64,000 nucleotides of DNA from Paraburkholderia sp. D15 (GTDB taxonomy: Bacteria > Pseudomonadota > Gammaproteobacteria > Burkholderiales > Burkholderiaceae). The position numbers were made by a program, and so were the translations under genes. Positions 5,551-63,494 of the stretch are shown in pieces (position 1 is the stretch's first letter; every line of letters starts with the position of its first letter). The stretch covers positions 248,001 through 312,000 of the forward strand of contig NZ_CP110396.1 of assembly GCF_029910215.1 (NCBI RefSeq). Reading direction: 5' to 3'. A model generated the notes under the pieces. The model was not told the DNA's origin, did no database searches, and was given only the letters and a program-made list of their open reading frames with translations.

Positions 5551-6654
5551 TCAACTATTCTCTTCCGGCTTCACGCCCAGCAACTCGCGGATGTGCGCGA
5601 GCGAGCCGTCGTCCTTGACCACCGTCGCCAGCCATTGATGCAGCGGCATATCCGCGGCCTCGGCGGCTTTCTCGGCGAAATACGCGGCCGGATTGTGCGG
5701 CTCCGTGCCACGAAAGAAGCGCGCCACCGCGCGCAACTGCGCGACGGCCTGCGCACGGCTCTGGATTCCTGCGATCGGGCTGGTCGGCGTGGTCGTCAAC
5801 ACGGGTTCCTCGCGTTGCGGAGAAGTCTTGAAGGTCGGCTCGGCGCGTTCGTGCTCGTTGGCCGCCGGCGTTTTGGCGGCAGGTGCGTCGGCATTCACGC
5901 CGAGTTCGCGCGCAAACCGCTCGGCCAGACGGAACACGCTCTCGTACGCGTCCTTCGCCTGACGGAAACTCGGTGCGGTATCGCCCGCGCGGCGGTCCAG
6001 TTCCTGTTCGAGCGCGAGCATCGCCGCTTCGAACGCTTTCAGATCGGCCAGCAGCGCGGTGTAGAACGCGGGCGGCGTCGCGCGTTTGGACGCCTCGATC
6101 TGTTCGATCGACGGCTTGCCGCGCGCGATATCGTCCGCATGATCCGGGTCACGCTTGACGGCCTGCGCGACGTGCGTGGCGACCTCCCAATCCAGCGCGC
6201 TGTACGCATTGCCCTGCGACGACGTGAGCGGCATGGCCCGCAACAGCTCGCCGGTGCGGCCCATCAGCCACGCGACGTTGCCGAGGCGATACTCGGTATC
6301 GTCGCCTTCCGGCAGCGGATGCACGGTGTCCCAGAAGCGCTCGCACAGCCCGCCGAGCAGCGTGTAACCCTGCGTGAGACCGCCGATGCCCTCTTCCAGC
6401 GCAAGCGCCTCGGTGAGCCAGACGGCGAGCCGCAGGTCTTTCGTCTGCGTGCGCAGCAGTGTGCTCGCGCGCTCCACGACGAACGGCCAGTCGGCCTCCT
6501 TGATATCCGTCACCCATTCGCCCTGATCGAGCGAGGGATCTTCGAAACGGCGCGCGTGCTGGATCGCGTCGAAGTCGGCGGAAAACAGCAGGTCTTCGCC
6601 GCAGGGCGAGGCGTCGCTGAGCGGCGCCAGCAGCGGGGTCAGGTTAGTCGGCAT
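5551..6654 (-). CDS. tssA: TssA (ImpA) T6SS assembly protein
   Basis: TssA primes and coordinates polymerisation of the tail tube and sheath at the baseplate. The 367-residue product carries the ImpA N-terminal domain, with the family pattern CGEDLLFSADFDAI then RRFEDPSLDQGEW near residues 14-47, and an Ala-rich variable middle. The ATG at 6654 was chosen because the protein then begins MPTNL like relatives; a TTG at 6666 in the same frame is possible and has a GGAA upstream. It is the last gene of the long minus-strand T6SS operon, 77 bases after tssH, and converges on the OmpA-like gene. Confidence 0.9.
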   Translation of the reverse strand: MPTNLTPLLAPLSDASPCGEDLLFSADFDAIQHARRFEDPSLDQGEWVTDIKEADWPFVVERASTLLRTQTKDLRLAVWLTEALALEEGIGGLTQGYTLLGGLCERFWDTVHPLPEGDDTEYRLGNVAWLMGRTGELLRAMPLTSSQGNAYSALDWEVATHVAQAVKRDPDHADDIARGKPSIEQIEASKRATPPAFYTALLADLKAFEAAMLALEQELDRRAGDTAPSFRQAKDAYESVFRLAERFARELGVNADAPAAKTPAANEHERAEPTFKTSPQREEPVLTTTPTSPIAGIQSRAQAVAQLRAVARFFRGTEPHNPAAYFAEKAAEAADMPLHQWLATVVKDDGSLAHIRELLGVKPEENS

Positions 6655-52482: not shown

Positions 52483-53259
52483 ATGTCCTTCACCCACACA
52501 CCCGCCGGCCGCATCGCCGAGACGGGACCGCAGTCCGACGCCGAGCGCCAGGCCCGCGTCGATCTGGCCGCCGCCTATCGGCTCGCCGCGCTCAACGGCT
52601 GGGACGATCTGGTCTACACGCATATCTCGGCCAGCGTGCCCGGCGAACCCGGTCACTTTCTCATCAACCCGTTCGGGCTTGCCTTCGACGAAGTGTGTGC
52701 GTCGAATCTCGTGAAGATCGATATCGACGGCAACATCGTCGGCGAGAGCGAACATCCGGTGAACGCGACCGGCTTCGCGCTGCATGCGGCCGTGCACGCG
52801 GCGCGCGCGGACGCGTTCTGCGTGATGCATCTGCACAACACGGCGGGCGTGGCCGTGTCCGCGCAACCCGGCGGCTTGCTGCCCGCGTCGCAACACGCGC
52901 TGCGTTTTCACGGCCACCTCGCGTATCACGACTACGAAGGTCTCTCGTTCTCGCCGGCCGAGGGCGAGCGTCTCGTCGCCAACCTCGCCGATAAACCCGC
53001 CATGCTGTTGCGCAATCACGGCACGCTGACCGCCGGCCGCACGGTCGCCGAAGCCTATGTACTGATGGCGACCTTGATCAAGGCCTGCGAAATCCAGTTG
53101 CACGCGCAGGCCTGCGGAAAAGATCTCGTGGTGCCGGACGCAGCGGTCGCCACGCGCACGGCGGCGCAGCTGTACGACGGCGGCGCGATCGAAGGTGCGA
53201 TCGAATGGCCCGCGTTGCTGCGCAAGCTCGACCGGATCGACCGTTCTTACCGGCATTGA
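52483..53259 (+). CDS. Class II aldolase/adducin-family protein
   Basis: A 258-residue zinc-dependent class II aldolase-fold protein. Metal ligands are His residues in MHLHNTAGV (about 112-120) and the C-terminal LRNHGTLTAGRTV. The YTHISASVP and LINPFGLAFDEV segments are conserved in the subgroup that includes fuculose-phosphate aldolases. Substrate unclear; many such genes act on sugar-acid or ribulose derivatives. It lies 15 bases after the urea transporter and 85 bases before the tautomerase. Confidence 0.87.
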   Translation: MSFTHTPAGRIAETGPQSDAERQARVDLAAAYRLAALNGWDDLVYTHISASVPGEPGHFLINPFGLAFDEVCASNLVKIDIDGNIVGESEHPVNATGFALHAAVHAARADAFCVMHLHNTAGVAVSAQPGGLLPASQHALRFHGHLAYHDYEGLSFSPAEGERLVANLADKPAMLLRNHGTLTAGRTVAEAYVLMATLIKACEIQLHAQACGKDLVVPDAAVATRTAAQLYDGGAIEGAIEWPALLRKLDRIDRSYRH

Positions 53260-53344
53260 ATTTCAGACATTGAATTCGCGGCCTTCAGCCTTCATTCGGT
53301 TCAAGGCCTTTGCTTCACCGCTCTTTTCAAACGGAATCCCCACC

Positions 53345-53533
53345 ATGCCCACGTTTCATATCGAACTCTTCGAAGGCCGTACGCTGGAACAGAAACGCCA
53401 GTTCGTCGAAGCCATCACCAAGGCGACCTGCGAGTCGCTGAACGTCGAACCGAATTCGGTGGACATTATCCTCACGGATGTAAAGCGAGAAAATTGGGCG
53501 ACTGGCGGAAGGCTTTGGAGCGATGCCCAGTAA
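53345..53533 (+). CDS. 4-oxalocrotonate tautomerase-family enzyme
   Basis: A complete 62-residue tautomerase: Pro-1 catalytic base after removal of Met (MPTFHIELFEGRT), Arg in LTDVKRENWATGG and the C-terminal GGRLWS. Forms hexamers of small subunits. It is the last chromosomal gene; the phage integrase converges on it 71 bases later. The prophage attachment site may lie in or just after its 3' end; the gene itself is intact. Confidence 0.92.
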   Translation: MPTFHIELFEGRTLEQKRQFVEAITKATCESLNVEPNSVDIILTDVKRENWATGGRLWSDAQ

Positions 53534-53604
53534 GGCTTTCCGCCGATTTTTAAAAAACCTAAAAAATCCAATCGTCCAAAACATTTCCAAAATCTATCCA
53601 AAAT

Positions 53605-54729
53605 TCAACCGGTCTGAAGCTTGATTTCCGTCCACTCCCGACCGCGCGAATCACGGTAAAGCGCGGTCATTTCAGCCGACTTGTGACCGAGCAACGCCTG
53701 GGCGAATTCCGCTCCGTACTGCTCGCCGTACAAGCGTGCCGCGAGCGAACGCAACTCGTGGAACGTCGCAGGAGTTCTTCCTGCCTCGACGGAAATTTTC
53801 GCGGCGTCCCGCATTTTTGCGAACATCCCGCTGATGTACTGCAGGTGCGGCGTATCTCCTGGAGACGCCGCACTGGTCTTCAGCACGAGATGAACCATGT
53901 GCTTGCTGATGACGTTATCGCGGCACCGCCGGATGACCTCCTCCAGGCTCACGCCAAGCGCATCCAGCCGCAGGGAAACAGGGATTCTGAGCTTCGCCCG
54001 TTGCCCCTCTTTTCCCTTCGATTGCTCGACCATCAGGAACCCGTCCTTGACGTCATCGAAGCGCATCTTGCCGATGTCCTCCCGGCGCTGACCACTGACG
54101 AGAGCCAACTCCATCGCGTTGGCAATCCACCGCGTTGCGGGATTCTTCGCCGCCTGTGCATAAATCAGCCGATATTCGTCCAGCGTCAGGCGCGAGCGGG
54201 TGATGGTGACTTCAGGCTTGAACACCGCATCCACCGGATTTTTACCGACTTCCACGTGCCCGTGCTGGATGGCCTCACGGAAAACGTCCAGCAAGACGCC
54301 GCGAAGTTTCGCTGCAGATGAGGTGCCGCGCTCCTCGGTCGCCAATTTCAAGGCGTCGGCAATCTGCTTCGGCGTGACCTTGCCGACCGAGTGCACCGAA
54401 AAATCCATCTTCCGGACTGCATTCAGCGCCGCCTTGATGCCGCCAAGGGTGTGCTTATTCATTGATGCCCGCGCCGCTTCATACGCATCGCACCATGCGC
54501 GCAGGGAAATGTCGTCCCCGTCGATGCGCTGGAGCAGCGATACATCGCCTTTGCGGCGCAGCAGTTCTGCGTTGGCCGTGCGCACCTTGGCCGACGCGAG
54601 TCGGAAGTCGCGCCCGAGCCCGAACGTCTTGCCGTCCGCTGGATTTTTGAACCAGTAGTAGCCCGCCGAATTCTTGTAGAGATTCGGCGGCCATCCCCGG
54701 CGATCCGCCTTACGCCGCCTTGCTGCCAT
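53605..54729 (-). CDS. int: Lambda-type tyrosine integrase
   Basis: A 374-residue tyrosine recombinase. N-terminal arm-binding domain PPNLYKNSAGYYWFKNP (residues 14-30) then KTFGLGRDFRLA, as in lambda Int. The core-binding domain follows. The catalytic domain has Arg in SGQRREDIGKM, Lys in QSKGKEGQ, the H-x-x-R pair in FHELRSLAARLY, His in LLGHKSAEM and Tyr in ALYRDSRG. All six catalytic positions look present. It overlaps xis by 20 bases and is the prophage boundary gene. Confidence 0.95.
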   Translation of the reverse strand: MAARRRKADRRGWPPNLYKNSAGYYWFKNPADGKTFGLGRDFRLASAKVRTANAELLRRKGDVSLLQRIDGDDISLRAWCDAYEAARASMNKHTLGGIKAALNAVRKMDFSVHSVGKVTPKQIADALKLATEERGTSSAAKLRGVLLDVFREAIQHGHVEVGKNPVDAVFKPEVTITRSRLTLDEYRLIYAQAAKNPATRWIANAMELALVSGQRREDIGKMRFDDVKDGFLMVEQSKGKEGQRAKLRIPVSLRLDALGVSLEEVIRRCRDNVISKHMVHLVLKTSAASPGDTPHLQYISGMFAKMRDAAKISVEAGRTPATFHELRSLAARLYGEQYGAEFAQALLGHKSAEMTALYRDSRGREWTEIKLQTG

Positions 54730-54928
54730 TTGTCATCCTGTTGATCTCGTCGGCGATAGGGTCGACATACTTGGCATCCGGCCGACAGAAATAGGAGCGT
54801 CCTACCTTGATAGGCATGGGACGGATCTTGCCTCCGTTGACCCAGTTGCGAAGCGTGTGCCTATGAGGCACGTGCTCTCCGAACAGGGTCTCTGCCCAGG
54901 TGCGGAGCGGTATCAGTTGCGCTGCCAT
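54710..54928 (-). CDS. xis: Excisionase-like DNA-binding protein
   Basis: A 72-residue protein with the lambda Xis-like winged helix: LIPLRTWAETLFG, HVPHRHTLRNWVNGGKI, and VGRSYFCRPDAKYVDP. GGGAGG lies 5 bases before its ATG at 54928. It ends inside the start of int, the usual xis-int arrangement, so it should direct excision with the integrase. The longer open frame (to 55012) has no conserved upstream part. Confidence 0.87.
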   Translation of the reverse strand: MAAQLIPLRTWAETLFGEHVPHRHTLRNWVNGGKIRPMPIKVGRSYFCRPDAKYVDPIADEINRMTNGSKAA

Positions 54929-54980
54929 TCGACCTCCCACAGCTTGCTTGTCAGTTCCAGTATCTGTTGCGCGGCTTCGG

Positions 54981-55862
54981 TCATGCGGGAAATTCTTCGT
55001 GTTTGCGGCCATCGAGATGGCGTCCGGCGGCTTTTTTGCCTGCCCGGCCCATGATCGTCCCGTCTGGATTAGTGAACTTCGGGCCTTTGACTGAGACGCC
55101 TTCGGTATGACCCATCATGGGCACCCACTCTCCCCACTGTTTGAAGAAAAACGGCGTGCCGACTTGCTCGCACTGGTCGCGGATATCGCGAGCCCAGTCC
55201 GGATGCATAGGCCGCGCGTCGGTGCCGCTTTCGCCGCCGACGATCACCCAGTCCAACGCTTCGAGCGCGTTCGTTCCGTCGCGAACGTCGTCGCTGGCAA
55301 AGATTCCTTCGAAGCTGACGGGGCCGAGCAACGGCTCCATCGACAGAAACCGGACGCGCGCCGGCACGGCGAGAAGCTTGGGGATATCGCGGTCGGCCTC
55401 TTCCTGATTGACGACCGTCGCGCCGAGCCAGACGTTGTCGCGCCCGGCGAGCCAGTCGTGCGACCTCGCCCGTGCGACCATTTCGAAGACGTTTCCGATG
55501 CGCTTCGTGAGAAGCAGCCAGTTGAGGTTCGGCGTGAGCTCGATCAGGTCGAACAGATCGCGACGCCACGCCGGATCGACGGCGTTATCGAACACGTCAG
55601 CGAGTGATGCGCAGAACACGCGCTGGCGCCGGCCGTGTTTGGCGAAGAACGCATCGTGGCCGCCATTCCAAATCTTCGGCGTTGCCCAGTTGCTCGCACC
55701 GGTGCGATGCCTGGCTTCGGTCGCTCCCCACGCAACATGCATCGTGCGTGCAGGCGTGCTGACGGCCGCATAGCAGTTGTCGCATCCGGGCGATACGCGG
55801 CTGCAACCGATCCACGGGTTGAACGTGTGATCGGTCCATTCGATTTTGCTGTTTTCGCTCAC
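54981..55862 (-). CDS. Phage Gp37/Gp68-family (DUF5131) protein
   Basis: A 293-residue phage protein starting at GTG 55862 with GGAGACAAATT upstream. It has a CSRVSPGCDNCYA cluster (Cys-x7-Cys-x2-Cys) near residues 20-32, WTDHTFNPWIGC, GGHDAFF, LLLTKR and GGESGTDARPMHPDW, all typical of DUF5131. The Cys cluster resembles an iron-sulfur/radical-SAM-like fold, but the reaction is unknown. Members occur in many temperate phages and plasmids. The upstream gene stop overlaps its start. Confidence 0.85.
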   Translation of the reverse strand: MSENSKIEWTDHTFNPWIGCSRVSPGCDNCYAAVSTPARTMHVAWGATEARHRTGASNWATPKIWNGGHDAFFAKHGRRQRVFCASLADVFDNAVDPAWRRDLFDLIELTPNLNWLLLTKRIGNVFEMVARARSHDWLAGRDNVWLGATVVNQEEADRDIPKLLAVPARVRFLSMEPLLGPVSFEGIFASDDVRDGTNALEALDWVIVGGESGTDARPMHPDWARDIRDQCEQVGTPFFFKQWGEWVPMMGHTEGVSVKGPKFTNPDGTIMGRAGKKAAGRHLDGRKHEEFPA

Positions 55863-56146
55863 AATTTGTCTCCGTTGGCGAGGGCGCGGATTTCGTCGCT
55901 GCACTGATCGCCAGCTTCCGCCATAAAATCGTAACGCCCGTCGGAAGCGCCTTGCGCAGTCTGATTCCATCCGTCTGCCATTTCATCGCAGACTATTGCC
56001 GCTTCCTCCAGCGCGCCCCGGCGGGAGGCTTGCCAACAGTCCCATAGGATTTCTTCGCGAGCCGATGACCAATATGGCTTCCCTTTCCTGTACTCCGAAA
56101 CCCACGCCTCGAACTTTTCCCGATCAGTCATGACTCGCTCAGACAT
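55859..56146 (-). CDS. Small phage hypothetical protein
   Basis: A 95-residue acidic protein, with REKFEAWVSEYRKGKPYW and ILWDCWQASRRGALEEAAIVCDEMAD (the latter cited as ILWDCWQASRRGA). This Trp-rich pattern recurs in phage early-region proteins of unknown role. GGAGGTGATC directly precedes the ATG at 56146, one of the best ribosome sites in the window. Its stop overlaps the GTG of the DUF5131 gene. Confidence 0.75.
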   Translation of the reverse strand: MSERVMTDREKFEAWVSEYRKGKPYWSSAREEILWDCWQASRRGALEEAAIVCDEMADGWNQTAQGASDGRYDFMAEAGDQCSDEIRALANGDKL

Positions 56147-59064: not shown

Positions 59065-60915
59065 TTAGGCCGCCGCCGTAATCAGACGCTCATGCGTGAA
59101 GTTGGCACGGATCAGCGCGGCCGCGACGTCAGGGCACACGCTATTGCCGATCATGCGCACCTGAGCGCTTTTCGAGAGGGGCTTTCCGTTGTGGATCGGG
59201 TCCAGCACGTAGGAATCCGGGAAGCCTTGGGCGCGCGCAAGTTCACGCGGCGTCAGCATCCGCATGCCGATATCGACGATCGCGTATGTTTCGCCGTGGA
59301 TCGTGACAAGACCGAAGCGATCGTGTGTCGGGATAGTGCCGAGCGGCGCGCGCAGGGACTGCCCGTCCTTTTCGTTGCCGTAGTACTTGATCAGAAACGC
59401 GCGCACTTCGCCGACGTGGCCGCCGCCGGCCGTAAGCGTCGGCATCGGATCGGCAGCGTCTTGGCCAAACTGGTTGTTGCGCAGCTTCAGAAGGTGCGAG
59501 GTGACGACAGTCGTATCCGCTTTGCTGGTGATGGTCGCCATTGGCTCGTTCGCATCGCGCGGCCGTGACTGACCGGCGCGGCCACCGCAACCGACGAGCT
59601 GCGCGGTGACTAGCGCGTGATGATCCTGCGCCGTCACCGTGCTCATCGCAGCATCGAGCGACGATCCGGGCGTCTCGTGACCACCGTAGTGCTTCGCGAG
59701 GAACGCGGACACGACGGCGTGCTTGACGCCACCGGCGACTGCGGTGCCGAGCGGCTTGTCGAGGCCGGGCACGCGCGGCTCCTGGCCCTCGCGCTCGCCG
59801 TAGCCGGTCTGGATCAACGTCGCGGAGACGAGAGCCTGTTCGCCGCGGTTTGCGCCGGTTACTGTCGCGATCGGCGCGCCGATGTCGGCGTTACGATCCG
59901 ATCCGTGATGAGTCACGTGCATCAGCGTAGGTGCGACGACTGCAAAGCGGTTCGCGGTTGTGGATGTGCCGAGGGGCGAATCGACGGACGAGCCACGAAA
60001 CCTCTCGTCAGCCGTGTAGTACGACACGATGAACGGATCCGCGCTGTTCACCACGAATTTCATGATGCCCTTGGCGATCCGGCGCAGCGTCGCGTCTTTC
60101 AGCGGCCGCGCGCGGTCAAAGATCGACGGACAGGGGATTGACCAGTCGATGCATTCGGCGGCGGTGCGCCACGGCAGCAGTTTCCCGGCCTTCACTGCGG
60201 CGCCTTTCGGGTCGCCGTGCGTTGCCGCAGGCCAGACGATAGGCAATCCGTCGCGGCGCGCGAAAACATAGAGGCGCTTACGGATCGTCGGCGTGCCAAA
60301 GTCGCAGGCACGCAGGACGCGCCACTCTACTTTGTAGCCAAGGCCGGCGTGCAGGCGCGCCATCGGGAAATCAGCGCCGAGCGTTTCGTAGATCTCGCCG
60401 GTGTCCGGATGCTCTTTCGGCAGACCAGTCGTGAGCGCCGCGACAAAGGCGCTGAACGTGCGGCCCTTCTCTGCCTTGATGGGACGCCCCTCATCGTCGA
60501 GCGGGCCCCAGTCCTGGAACTCTTCAACATTTTCGAGTGCGATGCAGCGAGGCATCTGGAACGTCGCCCACTTCAACGTGACCCATGCCAGCCCGCGAAT
60601 CTTCTGTTCGCGTGGCTTTCCGCCTTTCGCCTTGCTGTGATGCTTGCAGTCCGGGCTGAACCACGCGAGGCCGATCGGTTGCTCCCCCGTGATAAATCCG
60701 GGATGCACTGCGAAGACGTCTTCGGTGTAATGCTTCGTGGTCGGGTGGTTGGCTGCGTGCATCGCAAGCGCTTCGCCGTCGTGGTTGATCGCAATGTCGA
60801 TCGAGCGGCCGAACGCGCGCTCGATGCCGGTACTTGCGCCGCCTCCGCCGGCGAAGTTATCCACGATGAGCTCGCTGCCGAGTTGCAGGGGGAGAGAAAT
60901 CGCGTCGCGCTTCAT
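59065..60915 (-). CDS. Phage-type DNA C5-cytosine methyltransferase
   Basis: A 616-residue C5 methyltransferase. Motif I DNFAGGGGASTGIE (19-32), motif IV FSPDCKHHSKAKGG, motif VI ENVEEF, motif VIII RKRLYVFARR, motif IX/X RMLTPRELARAQGFP and VRMIGNSVCPDVAAALI. The active Cys is in SPDC rather than PPC, as in related phage enzymes. A large region (about 320-540) repeats a module of PLGT/AxATVT/NRF-type lines several times, perhaps as target-recognition units. It starts inside the RT stop (ATGA), so it is coupled to the DGR. Confidence 0.92.
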   Translation of the reverse strand: MKRDAISLPLQLGSELIVDNFAGGGGASTGIERAFGRSIDIAINHDGEALAMHAANHPTTKHYTEDVFAVHPGFITGEQPIGLAWFSPDCKHHSKAKGGKPREQKIRGLAWVTLKWATFQMPRCIALENVEEFQDWGPLDDEGRPIKAEKGRTFSAFVAALTTGLPKEHPDTGEIYETLGADFPMARLHAGLGYKVEWRVLRACDFGTPTIRKRLYVFARRDGLPIVWPAATHGDPKGAAVKAGKLLPWRTAAECIDWSIPCPSIFDRARPLKDATLRRIAKGIMKFVVNSADPFIVSYYTADERFRGSSVDSPLGTSTTANRFAVVAPTLMHVTHHGSDRNADIGAPIATVTGANRGEQALVSATLIQTGYGEREGQEPRVPGLDKPLGTAVAGGVKHAVVSAFLAKHYGGHETPGSSLDAAMSTVTAQDHHALVTAQLVGCGGRAGQSRPRDANEPMATITSKADTTVVTSHLLKLRNNQFGQDAADPMPTLTAGGGHVGEVRAFLIKYYGNEKDGQSLRAPLGTIPTHDRFGLVTIHGETYAIVDIGMRMLTPRELARAQGFPDSYVLDPIHNGKPLSKSAQVRMIGNSVCPDVAAALIRANFTHERLITAAA

Positions 60916-62255
60916 ACGCCTGATCCTCGATATGTTTTGGTGAGTTTGAAGTTGACCGCGTGTCCGCGATCCCGGACAACGTTGGCTAGCGTGGCGCGGT
61001 CGTGGTGGCTGGCCGGCGCCTGCCCGAGCAGGCCGAAATAGCTGTTCGCGACATCAAGAAATTCGTCTGCGGCGACCGTAGCGACGCGCCGGGCTGCTTC
61101 GCCGACCGTGCGCCGCCGCGTCGAGCGTCGCCACGGCTTGATCACCTGCCCGACGAAGTCCACGCCGCGCGCGATCGGCTGAAGAATGGTTTTCTTCGGA
61201 TTCAACCGCAGGCCGAGCGCCGCCGGCAGGAACGCGTCGACGTCGCGCAGCGCCGCGTTCAGCCAGTCGGTCGATTCGTGCAAAAACAGGAAGTCATCCA
61301 CATAGCGGATGTAGTGGCGTGCCCCTATCACGTGCTTTACATGCTGGTCCAACACGTCGAGCAGCACATTCGCGAAGAACTGTGACGAGAGGTTGCCGAT
61401 CGGCAGGCCGAGGTGCGCCGGCTGGTTCATGAGTCGCTTGTGCGGCGGTACCAGATCCATCAGCGCGCGATCGCCGCGGTAGACGAAGTCGGCCCGTGGA
61501 TCGTGCATCAGCACGAGCTCGGTCAGCGCGCGCCAGAACGGCTCGGGAATCTTCGCGAGCAGCAGCTTGAGCAATTTGCGCTTGTCGATGCTGACGAAGA
61601 AGTTCGCGAGATCGCACTTCAGATAGTGCGCCGGCCGGGACCAGTTTTGCGTGACCGAGCGAATCTTCCCGTCGAGGCGTTGCGCCGCGTACAGCGTGCC
61701 GCGCCCCTTGATACATGCGCACGAGTCGGCAATGAATGCCTTTTCGAAACGCGGGCCGGTGCGCTTGTACAGTAAATGGTGGACGACACGGTCGCGAAAG
61801 TCGGCCGCCCACACCTCGCGCGGCTTCGGGCGCGTGATCACGAAACAGACGGAAGGGCCGGGCGTATAAGTGCCGCCGGCCAGATCGTCGTACAGGCGAC
61901 GAAGGTTGTGCTCCAGATTCGATTCGAAAGTCAGCGCGCTGGCGCTGTTGCGCTTCGTGCGCCGACAGTCGAAATAGGCGTTGGCGAGATCCGTAAAAGT
62001 GAAACCAGCATTCCAATCTGCGGACGGCACGCGCGCGGAGCGCGTTGTTCTTGTGGTTGTTGTTCTGGTTACCGTTGTTGAAGTTCTGATACCAGGCCCA
62101 ACCGTATCGTTCGTGCTATCTACGTCGCCCGGCCGATCGCTCAGCAGGGAAACTGCGCAGGACCTGTCCGCACGCCGGCGGTCGGTATCCGTGATGCGCA
62201 TGGCGGTGGCCTCGTGAGCCAGCGGCACGACCAGATTGAAAGATCGCTCAGTCAT
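60912..62255 (-). CDS. DGR reverse transcriptase
   Basis: A 447-residue RT. From RT-fold residue ~90 onward: YDDLAGGTYTPGPSVCFVIT, KPREVWAADFRDRVVHHLLY, catalytic Asp in LKCDLANFFVSID (about 212-224), GLPIGNLSSQFFANV (motif with the DGR-specific SQ, about 283-297) and YIRYVDDFLFL (YVDD, about 315-325). A C-terminal thumb follows. Start: the ATG at 62255 overlaps the avd stop and has GGAGG upstream. No ATG lies between TR and the RT domain, so the first ~80 residues are read through TR in another frame. A GTG at 62030, inside TR, is the only later alternative; it lacks a ribosome site. Confidence 0.93.
   Translation of the reverse strand: MTERSFNLVVPLAHEATAMRITDTDRRRADRSCAVSLLSDRPGDVDSTNDTVGPGIRTSTTVTRTTTTRTTRSARVPSADWNAGFTFTDLANAYFDCRRTKRNSASALTFESNLEHNLRRLYDDLAGGTYTPGPSVCFVITRPKPREVWAADFRDRVVHHLLYKRTGPRFEKAFIADSCACIKGRGTLYAAQRLDGKIRSVTQNWSRPAHYLKCDLANFFVSIDKRKLLKLLLAKIPEPFWRALTELVLMHDPRADFVYRGDRALMDLVPPHKRLMNQPAHLGLPIGNLSSQFFANVLLDVLDQHVKHVIGARHYIRYVDDFLFLHESTDWLNAALRDVDAFLPAALGLRLNPKKTILQPIARGVDFVGQVIKPWRRSTRRRTVGEAARRVATVAADEFLDVANSYFGLLGQAPASHHDRATLANVVRDRGHAVNFKLTKTYRGSGV
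62015..62104 (-). repeat. DGR template repeat (TR)
   Basis: A 90-bp copy (coding orientation is minus). In the VR reading frame it encodes WYQNFNNGNQNNNHKNN, nine AAC (Asn) codons. This adenine-rich design gives many substitutable codons with few stops. The 30 bases at its 3' end (62015-62044) are GC-rich and identical in all copies, matching the initiation region of mutagenic homing. It lies inside the RT open frame, in a different frame. Confidence 0.97.
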
Positions 62256-62622
62256 GACGGCCTTGACCTCCATGAAGCGGGCGACTTGCGGCGCGGCGCC
62301 ATCCATTTGCCTGTTTGCCGATGCTCGTGCTCAGGTCAATCGCCTTCGCGTAACCACCACGCGAAATCAGGCGCTTGTCCGTTGCAAGGCGAAGAAGAAG
62401 TTCGATCACCTGTAGACGCTCAAGCAACTCGACGAGATGCGGTTCCTTGTTCGTAGCGACATTCGCACGGAAAACGAGCACCGCTATTTCAATGCACTCG
62501 GCGTCGATCTTCTCGCCGATCGAGCGCTTGAACTTTCGCGGCACATTTGCAACGAGGTCGCTCACGACGTCGAGCATTTCGTAAGCGACCTTGTAAATCG
62601 GCAGTTGCGTGTGGATGGCCAT
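62248..62622 (-). CDS. avd: Avd, DGR accessory variability determinant
   Basis: A 124-residue helical protein of the Avd/23S rRNA-intervening-sequence four-helix type: LPIYKVAYEMLDVVSDLV, FKRSIGEKIDAECIEIAVL, PHLVELLERLQVIELLLRLA, and IGKQANGW near the end. In Bordetella phage BPP-1 the Avd pentamer binds the RT and is needed for mutagenic homing. Here it lies between the targets and TR/RT, as in BPP-1. Its stop overlaps the RT start (ATGACTGA). The last ~18 residues (Arg/His-rich) are of low similarity. Confidence 0.9.
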   Translation of the reverse strand: MAIHTQLPIYKVAYEMLDVVSDLVANVPRKFKRSIGEKIDAECIEIAVLVFRANVATNKEPHLVELLERLQVIELLLRLATDKRLISRGGYAKAIDLSTSIGKQANGWRRAASRPLHGGQGRHD

Positions 62623-62639
62623 GCTGTTGAATGACTAAA

Positions 62640-63098
62640 TTATTGAAGAATTAATCTGCGGACGGCACGCGCGCGGAGCGCGAGGCCCTCGCGGTCGTCG
62701 TCCTGGCTACCGTAGCCGAAGTACTGATACCAGGCCCAACCGGACTCTTCCTCGTGCTGTTGACCGGACCAGTAATACGTCGGTTGAAACTCGCTCTTCA
62801 GGTTGGCGAAGAGCAGTGACTGTTCGCGACGATTGGGCAATACGCCGCCATGTTCGGTTGCCCACTTACCAGCCGCTTCCCAGTCAACATCCTCGGCGTC
62901 GCCGGGTAGCAGGATCAGGTGATAGTCGGCCTCACCGTTTTCGCCGAGCACGAGACCGGCGTAACGTTCACCCGGCGCGAGCGTGATCGTCGCTGCCGCG
63001 ATGTGGAAGACCGTGGTAGCCGCCTGTTTTTTGAAAGCCAAGATCATCTCGTTGACTTTTGTTTGTTCGGCCTCGATGGCCTCAAGCGTGATTGTCAT
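62640..63098 (-). CDS. DGR target protein 2 (VR2)
   Basis: A 152-residue protein. AAGGAG lies 8 bases before the ATG at 63098; GTG 63107 is too close to that site. An N-terminal helix (TKVNEMILAFKKQ) is followed by APGERYAGLVLG, LPNRREQSLLFANLKSEFQ and YYWSGQQ. This is the Lcl/DUF1566 C-type-lectin-like pattern with a variable end. The variable stretch reads WYQYFGYGSQDDDREGL, then the constant ALRARAVRR. It is paralogous to the upstream target. It has no tail-fibre or signal-peptide domain. Confidence 0.9.
   Translation of the reverse strand: MTITLEAIEAEQTKVNEMILAFKKQAATTVFHIAAATITLAPGERYAGLVLGENGEADYHLILLPGDAEDVDWEAAGKWATEHGGVLPNRREQSLLFANLKSEFQPTYYWSGQQHEEESGWAWYQYFGYGSQDDDREGLALRARAVRRLILQ
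62653..62742 (-). repeat. Variable repeat VR2
   Basis: 90 bp aligned to TR with no gaps. 14 differences, all at TR adenines (coding strand); the other 76 positions match. Ends in the same GC-rich 30-base block as TR and then two codons before the stop. Confidence 0.97.
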
Positions 63099-63128
63099 CG
63101 CCTGCACTCCTTGGTAATTGATGAATGA

Positions 63129-63494
63129 TTAAATGGGCAATCTGCGGACGGCACGCGCGCGGAGCGCGTTGCCCTTGTGGTTGAGGCTCTGGCTACCGGT
63201 GAGGAAGTACTGATACCAGGCCCAACCGGCGTATCCCGTATCCGTGTCGGGCGCGTTCGACCAGTACGCGTCTTTCTGGAACTCGTCGCGGAATCCTGCG
63301 AAGAGCATGGCCTGTTCGATGCGGTTCGGCAGATCGCCACCGATGCTCTTGGCCCACTCGAGTTGATCGGCCCACGGCGCATCGTCGTTGTCACCCGGCA
63401 GCAGCACGACGTGATAGATGTCGCCGTTCTTGTCACCCACGGCGCCGATGTAGATCTCGCCTTCAGCGAGCGGGGGAATCTGAAGTTGTTGCAT
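63129..63494 (-). CDS. DGR target protein 1 (VR1)
   Basis: A 121-residue protein. The ATG at 63494 has AGGAG 6 bases before it; the frame is open farther upstream but without similarity. Pattern: AEGEIYIGAVGDKNGDIYHV, LPNRIEQAMLFAGFRDEFQ and YWSNAPDTD, then variable WYQYFLTGSQSLNHKGN (residues 93-109) and constant ALRARAVRR. It is an Lcl/DUF1566-like lectin fold, a known DGR target type. First gene of the visible DGR operon, 30 bases before target 2. Confidence 0.9.
   Translation of the reverse strand: MQQLQIPPLAEGEIYIGAVGDKNGDIYHVVLLPGDNDDAPWADQLEWAKSIGGDLPNRIEQAMLFAGFRDEFQKDAYWSNAPDTDTGYAGWAWYQYFLTGSQSLNHKGNALRARAVRRLPI
63139..63228 (-). repeat. Variable repeat VR1
   Basis: 90 bp aligned gap-free to TR. 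10 differences, all at TR adenines; 80 positions match. Six of the changed sites are also changed in VR2, four are unique. The GC-rich block at the 3' side is unchanged. Confidence 0.97.

Follow-up and report, generated by a model that had tools for sequence, protein, structure and literature searches.

The priming of cDNA in diversity-generating retroelements (DGRs) and the discrimination of their variable repeats (VRs) from the template repeat (TR) have, as far as the literature consulted goes, been worked out mainly in phage BPP-1. In the sections available to us, an internal adenine of the BPP-1 spacer is reported as the cDNA primer (PMC12875486), and Guo et al. describe a GC-rich hairpin (7-10 bp, 4-34 bp behind the VR) that is needed for efficient homing and was proposed as a conserved requirement (PMC3240598). 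In retrons, according to the part of the source at hand, the 5' end of msr pairs with the 3' end of msd, and the G that primes sits on the msr strand, at its inner end (PMC6868368). The consulted portions of the paper on Burkholderia phage Magia (MT701587) mention a potential DGR with the targets gp47 and gp57, and those of DiGReF include two-VR DGRs in B. thailandensis, B. glumae, and Ralstonia, as well as a class in which TR overlaps the end of the reverse transcriptase (RT) open reading frame (ORF) (PMC3521204). In this study, we analyzed a stretch of 64,000 nucleotides from Paraburkholderia sp. D15 (NZ_CP110396.1, positions 248,001 to 312,000; hereafter the window), in which the sequence identifies a prophage DGR with RT, Avd, and two lectin-fold targets. 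The element itself is an ordinary DGR, because DGRs of this sort are already known from both Burkholderia and Burkholderia phages (Magia), while the template RNA layout and the VR-flanking array of its RT clade are unusual. From the A-only changes, the RNA fold, and the arrays, all of which are read from the sequence, we infer that copying is likely primed from the RNA leader and that the copies are likely guided to their targets by the arrays.

The TR (62015-62104; placed by alignment and genome BLAST), VR2 (62653-62742), and VR1 (63139-63228), which lie on the minus strand like all features of the element given below, align without gaps across 90 bp. A first-pass annotation of this DNA had counted 10 and 14 changes, all at adenines, and these counts were reproduced exactly: 10 of the 26 template adenines are changed in VR1 and 14 in VR2, and none of the 64 other positions is changed in either. 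Considering both copies, 17 of 26 A positions and 0 of 64 non-A positions are altered in at least one. The hypergeometric probability of A-only changes arising by chance is 9e-7 for VR1, 1e-9 for VR2, and 3e-12 for the union, and the non-A counts in the window are free of VR-detection bias. The two variable targets proposed in the annotation are borne out, with both target frames intact. The full-genome search for remote VRs that it recommended was run with TR BLAST against the whole 8.3-Mb genome (three contigs) and returned TR, VR1, and VR2 only; a scan tolerating A changes found no further copies of TR in the window and the stretch to its right (C2:308001-368000). The final 30 bp of TR, VR1, and VR2 are the same, and the mismatches between initiation of mutagenic homing sites (IMH/IMH*) of a BPP-1-type target site were not found here.

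The avd gene (accessory variability determinant, 62248-62622) lies between the targets and TR, as annotated. Its product matches bAvd (PF22296) above the cut-off and PHROG 3206 ("Avd protein of DGR"), and it scores 50.6 bits against NCBIfam DivGenRetAVD, below the cut-off of 80. The RT ORF (60912-62306) matches RVT_1 (E 2.3e-15) and PHROG 1423 (E 3e-111) as well as brt of BPP-1 (tblastn, about 30% identity). An SQ motif is a mark of DGRs, and both this motif (LPIGNLSSQF) and YVDD are present in the sequence, as noted in the annotation. Retron-family membership of the RT was not detected with retron St85, the only retron model listed, against which it scores 47.4 of the 235 bits needed. The frames of RT, Avd, and both targets are all open and intact and share one strand.

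While the matches uphold the annotated RT, its ORF as drawn also includes TR and the leader 5' of TR, and amino-acid constraint begins only near the TR 3' end. Relatives of the RT were collected from 84,980 species genomes (4 loci), IMG/VR (22, the best 80 of 578, and 42), 196 related genomes (20 with a match, own genome counted), and one further scan (a single relative). In 88 non-redundant relatives with an open frame, codon periodicity starts at ORF residues 97-108, i.e., near the TR 3' end. Divergence at the three codon positions is 0.27/0.28/0.27 in the leader and 0.23/0.27/0.31 in TR versus about 0.2/0.2/0.5 in RT, and the ratio of nonsynonymous to synonymous differences (pN/pS) is 0.94 and 0.79, respectively, versus 0.26-0.38 in RT. 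We see no protein constraint on the leader and TR because codon periodicity is missing there, and translation of TR as the RT N-terminus was rejected on the same 88 loci. RVT_1, PHROG 1423, and codon periodicity place the RT region under amino-acid constraint at 60912-62018, with an open frame to 62306. The RT core of the window begins about 12 nt after the TR end, and third codon positions are free immediately past TR. Of 105 loci, at least 95 have an RT frame that is open across TR, and at least 88 have one that is open across the leader; in some of the others, a second repeat caused the TR start to be set wrongly. No ATG, GTG, or TTG occurs within -30 to +45 of the TR end in 56 of the 105. 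Across 62105-62306 of the window, the RT frame is unbroken in most relatives despite no visible protein constraint, and many of them lack a nearby start codon.

Hereafter, "early-operon type" denotes the RT clade of the window; gene context was read for the window, Magia, Pseudomonas phage Haboob, and a Shewanella phage, and the other loci were assigned by RT similarity. The 143 bp between avd and TR (62105-62247) form a structured 5' leader of the template RNA and are a full-length match to the Rfam family RT-15 (RF03018; 166.6 bits, E 5.6e-41; model match 62104-62286). Among 14 loci given to Rfam, RT-15 was present in 7/7 of the early-operon type and in 0/7 other DGR loci. The Rfam name and description of RT-15 are silent on DGRs; the link to TR and the helix described below are added here, and a family without a stated role gains a likely one. 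RNAalifold on 31 sequences predicts that the leader is multibranched and that its 5' strand (62232-62241, retron a1-like) pairs, in a helix termed P1, with the TR 3' end and the bases directly beyond it (62011-62020, retron a2-like). The candidate priming nucleotide at the 3' end of the P1 leader strand is the G at 62232 or 62231, both of which are invariant in alignments A3 and A6.

The predicted fold is supported by a second alignment of 22 more diverse loci, six of which are common to the alignment from which it was derived. With the 8 pairs within TR excluded, 39 of 47 remain; in these, 97.9% of the cells are paired compared with 88.5% after shuffling, 23 pairs have two-sided changes compared with 7.7, and the covariation score is 0.334 compared with 0.135, with 0/500 shuffles as high. 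When the partner strand was slid, only 30-39% remained paired. P1 was counted separately in 141 of 142 loci, placed by anchors outside the helix, which yielded 70 unique helices (three rows are visibly mis-anchored and were scored as mismatches). Pairs 1-5 mostly do not vary. At pair 7, the counts are TA (23), CG (21), GC (11), AT (3), and GU (6) with 6 mismatches; hence, 58/70 are Watson-Crick pairs, and all four types are represented. For pairs 4-8, the Watson-Crick fraction is 0.757, compared with 0.588 in permuted sets (sd 0.017; maximum of 1000, 0.643) and 0.18-0.27 in slid controls. Examples are leader TTGAATCTG with TR end CAGATTCAA (L094), leader TTCATCTG with TR end CAGATGAA (L139), and leader CAACCTG with TR end CAGGTTG (L122). 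By this covariation, P1 links the leader 5' strand and the TR 3' end.

In BPP-1, VHML, ACA1, and ARM81mr, the DGR is located among tail or virion genes. The median distances from the avd stop to TR and from the TR end to the RT core are 157 nt and 13.5 nt in 142 early-operon-type loci, which include overlapping and near-identical contigs, and 6 nt (n=73) and 183.5 nt (n=74) in tail-type loci. A BPP-1-type structured spacer 3' of TR was not found in the window, where RF03022 has no match at E up to 1. Among the 14 loci given to Rfam, Phage_DGR (RF03022) was present in BPP-1 alone, behind TR (2822-2954 of L060). The window shares with BPP-1 (mtd-avd-TR-brt) the RT, Avd, single TR, A-only changes, and the order target-avd-TR-RT. 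However, the TR of BPP-1 directly follows avd and its spacer RNA lies 3' of TR, whereas the RNA of the window lies 5' of TR; BPP-1 has a GC hairpin after VR, whereas the window has an array of 8-nt units instead; and the window targets have no tail-protein match in any search made. In a side check without control, the best match of tail-type spacer strands to the TR 3' end was 5 to 8 bp long and started at +43 to +60 in 19/63 loci, BPP-1 included. BPP-1 itself had, in the same uncontrolled check, a 5-bp match at spacer +56 with its own TR 3' end, and its priming adenine is presumably A56. If spacer-adenine priming holds, both types have a strand that pairs with the TR 3' end and whose own 3' end points into TR, here from the 5' side.

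As judged by these comparisons, the template RNA is permuted relative to BPP-1, with a leader 5' of TR, no 3' spacer, and the topology of a retron RNA. As in the retron msr-msd described in the part of PMC6868368 consulted, 5' and 3' strands pair around a folded RNA and a template, the priming position (in the window, a candidate) lies at the inner end of the 5' strand, and the RT gene is in the same cassette. Unlike in retrons, the template of the window is a donor to VRs, and its RT falls far under the retron St85 cut-off; branched multicopy single-stranded DNA (msDNA) is the retron product.

Both VRs of the window are followed by an AT-rich tract of 8-nt units with the consensus [AC]TT[TC]A[AG][TC][CA] ([AC]TTYARYM). 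The array after VR2 (62625-62648) consists of the units CTTCAATA ATTTAGTC ATTCAACA, and that after VR1 (63111-63134) of ATTTAATC ATTCATCA ATTACCAA. In many loci, the units start at +8, +16, and +24 past GCAG. About nine in ten VRs, remote ones included, carry the phased array, which does not follow TR and is otherwise rare. In 206 unique VR flanks from 102 loci, a few of which begin within the VR through mis-registration, lag-8 self-identity over 36 nt is 0.458, compared with 0.277 for shuffled flanks (sd 0.006, max 0.301), 0.204 for 102 TR flanks, and 0.27 for AT-rich 36-mers from the first loci (n=3108). Lag 8 is the best lag in 115/206 VR flanks and 2/102 TR flanks, and 199/206 VR flanks contain 2 to 4 units.

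We trained a three-unit matrix on the VR flanks of the clade (cut-off 10.84). The array after VR2 scores 16.43, that after VR1 10.28, just under the cut-off, and the TR flank of the window -4.79. On both strands of 895 kb, the matrix gives 190 matches at 10.84, all on the coding strand: 183 at VR ends, 0 at TR ends, and 7 elsewhere. At a cut-off of 8, there are 202 at VR ends and 16 elsewhere; the coverage of 224 VR entries is 183 and 202 at the two cut-offs. The 53 kb of chromosome scanned contain no match. All phage matches lie at VRs: one (VR2) over 60 kb of the window prophage, 3 over the 26 kb of Magia, and 2 over 12 kb of Shewanella phage sequence. Pseudomonas-type flanks outside the training set are a semi-independent test only, because they are relatives of the training clade; 37/41 reach 10.84 and 40/41 reach 8, compared with 0/37 for TR, and a genome scan of this set yields 69 matches, all but 3 of them (66) at VR ends. 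A target homolog in the Shewanella phage prompted the search for a third VR there, also outside training although the other two VRs of this phage were used for it; this third VR has an array scoring 13.7 at +3 and differs from TR at 11/26 A and 2/65 other positions. The array likely marks target sites, and with its matrix the VRs of this lineage can be located using only DNA sequence.

The array matches without a detected VR are L080 3378, L105 2854, L109 1602, L116 2744, L120 2831, L044 230, and L076 53. These seven are probably missed or cut VRs, and a VR is expected at some of them. The remote third target of the Shewanella phage (vB_Sb_QDWS, vBSbQDWS_65, L266 765-1202) is located near its RecT gene and is annotated as hypothetical. 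In distant DGRs (L055, about 5725-5785, and L057, minus strand), we noticed by eye T-rich tracts behind the VR with an apparent 8-nt phase and a different core, CTCTTTAC CTCTTTGG. L057 has two VRs of one TR, one on either side of TR.

Scanning for GC hairpins (stem of at least 6, at least 70% GC, within 60 nt) found none after VR1 or VR2 of the window, while they are present in 4/4 tail-type phages and 46/53 tail-type flanks. Tail-type flanks (L186-L265) have no octads (0/53), and a 7-nt period lies between VR and the hairpin (0.453 vs 0.269, sd 0.012). Because of this period, short phased repeats may be a general feature, with the hairpin as an addition.

Magia belongs to the same lineage and shares the RT, Avd, tandem small targets with a remote one, and the early operon, with a layout as in the window prophage. 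It differs in its DNA (about 72% identity to the window), and the leader RNA and array go unmentioned in the consulted portions of its paper. Its gp46 (L033 13713-14177) also ends in a VR and an 8-nt array; the same portions name gp47 and gp57 only. The two targets and the class of a TR overlapping the RT ORF are likewise found in DiGReF, as far as that source was available; in the window lineage, unlike there, gene order and RNA architecture go together. A partial literature search, which did not include the original description of RT-15 and is no proof of novelty, met no mention of the 8-nt array or of RT-15 as a DGR RNA. In its sequence, this lineage is a DGR variant whose template RNA is permuted and retron-like and whose target sites bear a phased array.

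We propose a pathway in which the P1 leader strand, its 3' end pointing into TR, would prime cDNA synthesis by an internal 2'-OH like the branch G of retrons. RT-Avd would then copy TR with errors at A, the mutated cDNA would replace the VR, and the array would distinguish VR from TR. The array is put forward as the discriminator rather than mismatches in the homing region because no such mismatches are present here.

Several observations count against leader priming and array guidance. P1 pair 6 is unpaired in 30/70 loci, and an unanchored search for the best helix between leader and TR end gave 7.3 versus 6.2 for shuffled leaders, barely higher, which is why the anchored count was made. The array matrix was trained on the same clade; a quarter of the training flanks fall below 10.84 by construction, as does VR1 of the window in its score. 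The array also extends over the stop codon and the beginning of the following gene, an overlap that makes a translational role possible. GC hairpins are present in 18/206 early-operon-type VR flanks and 19/51 of the Pseudomonas set. No near-identical strain of this prophage was found, and the pairs with recent change cover other loci only. Finally, P1 could be just a fold that binds RT-Avd.

In that last case, the RT-15 leader and P1 would merely bind and place RT-Avd, and cDNA synthesis would start elsewhere, for instance from a nicked target DNA or from a different RNA or DNA end. A target-primed route was earlier postulated for BPP-1, according to the consulted part of PMC3240598. We regard this as a serious contender but a rather unlikely one, since P1 shows covariation and, at the TR/VR boundary, positions a strand whose 3' end is directed into TR. 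For BPP-1 itself, the 5-bp match between spacer position 56 and the TR 3' end (no control) and the reported priming by an internal spacer adenine (PMC12875486, in the sections available) argue in the same direction.

The 8-nt arrays could serve translation of the next gene, by re-initiation or multi-frame stops, or other regulation rather than homing; they overlap target stop codons and often stand just before avd or the next start codon. This appears unlikely, given that the array register is mostly tied to the VR end and that remote VRs with other neighbors carry arrays. Other junctions of the same phages have none, the 3 matches in the 26 kb of Magia all being at its 3 VRs. Many units read TTCA, not a stop codon, and a target homolog on 6 kb of phage sequence, in which no TR/VR pair is detectable, ends without an array.

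The annotation described an active-looking DGR with two targets in a prophage, and the A-only pattern of the window together with the same pattern across relatives supports this. Over a fixed 85-base core, 71 of 73 VRs could be recounted (two run past the contig start). In these 71 TR/VR comparisons from 34 loci, window included, 856/1875 A and 67/4160 other positions are changed, and 59 of the 67 non-A changes lie in six VRs with a broken register (indel or TR edge). The non-A counts of relatives are biased low, because the VR search demanded few or no non-A changes over 50-60 bases (the TR/VR stretches underlying the recount have zero non-A change by construction); the A changes are not a product of this rule. 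Within that bias, the similar rate of non-A changes in relatives that the annotation had named as a refutation was not observed. Between loci, 61 VR pairs differ at 386/1152 A sites and 4/2508 others; the pairs have the same last 60 TR bases and RT flanks at least 93% identical, 18 come from 100% identical flanks, and pairs share loci. For example, VR2 of L086 and L089 differ at 11/19 A sites, with 0.8% change across the rest of the target. By these differences, the lineage is active, as observed in loci other than this prophage. The element could be a relic that once diversified its targets and is now inactive in this prophage, as the origin of the recently changed strain pairs from other loci would allow, but with RT, Avd, and both targets in intact open frames and with relatives such as L086/L089 showing recent A-only change, we consider it quite improbable. 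A mere duplication of genes, with differences due to chance or error and without retroelement activity, merits practically no credence, as nothing was found in its favor, all 24 changes are at A (P about 3e-12 for the union) and the same pattern is found clade-wide, counts that exclude duplication.

Leader-primed, array-guided copying would permit a broader analogy, which we hold tentatively and with slightly more doubt than confidence: the RT-15 leader would correspond to msr, TR to msd, P1 to the a1/a2 stem, and the invariant G to the 2'-OH primer. Retrons and DGRs would then share an RNA logic, of which BPP-1 would be a circular permutation, and phased repeats would be a general address tag with the hairpin optional. 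A large phage lineage in which the RNA flanks TR on the opposite side, TR and VR have identical homing ends, and an array takes the place of the hairpin is a natural permutation for testing both cDNA priming and VR/TR discrimination.

Target gene 1 (63129-63494) encodes 121 aa with a C-type-lectin-like fold in the predicted model (pLDDT 94.7). Its best PDB match is the C-terminal domain of Legionella Lcl (TM 0.71, 21% identity), followed by C-type lectins, and its best named protein matches are from Paraburkholderia. In this model, the VR of target 1 is located at the C-terminus of a C-type-lectin fold. Target gene 2 (62640-63107) is an ORF from GTG 63107, although by eye an ATG at 63098 behind GGAG is the likelier start; its lectin assignment is by sequence similarity only, with a weak Lcl_C match below the cut-off. 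Pfam, PHROGs, and NCBIfam gave no tail or membrane domain for the window targets, and no function beyond the fold was found. A strongly hydrophobic stretch is present in 15/278 predicted target ORFs, many of which are in wrong frames. BgManors32, a candidate target homolog without a DGR, was rejected, as the DNA match falls on a different gene.

The window ends within the prophage, whose integrase is encoded at 53605-54729; a cytosine methylase is encoded at 59065-60915. To the right of the window (C2:308001-368000), PHROG matches include an exonuclease, a RecT-like protein, a repressor, a helicase, a portal, a tail sheath, a baseplate, and tail fibre or tail-fibre assembly proteins, which indicate a contractile-tail phage. 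No common 15-mer was found as an attachment site between 52501-55000 and the right-hand stretch, nor a tRNA integration site in the window. RecT and exonuclease genes are on the DGR strand about 5 to 7 kb upstream of target 1, and the tail fibre gene (C2:353449-355839) is on the opposite strand, 42 kb off. The element sits in the early recombination operon. In Haboob, both VR-bearing genes, Avd, RT, and Bet are likewise in a single early block. Tail-fibre tropism switching is not to be assumed here because the DGR is in the early operon, 42 kb from the tail fibre, and lectin targets in such an operon call into question the habit of reading phage DGRs as host-range switches. The prophage also encodes a DUF5131 protein (54981-55970), and an early-operon ORF (L004 4784-5554) matches ribosome modulation factor at its C-terminus (31.6 bits, cut-off 27.9).

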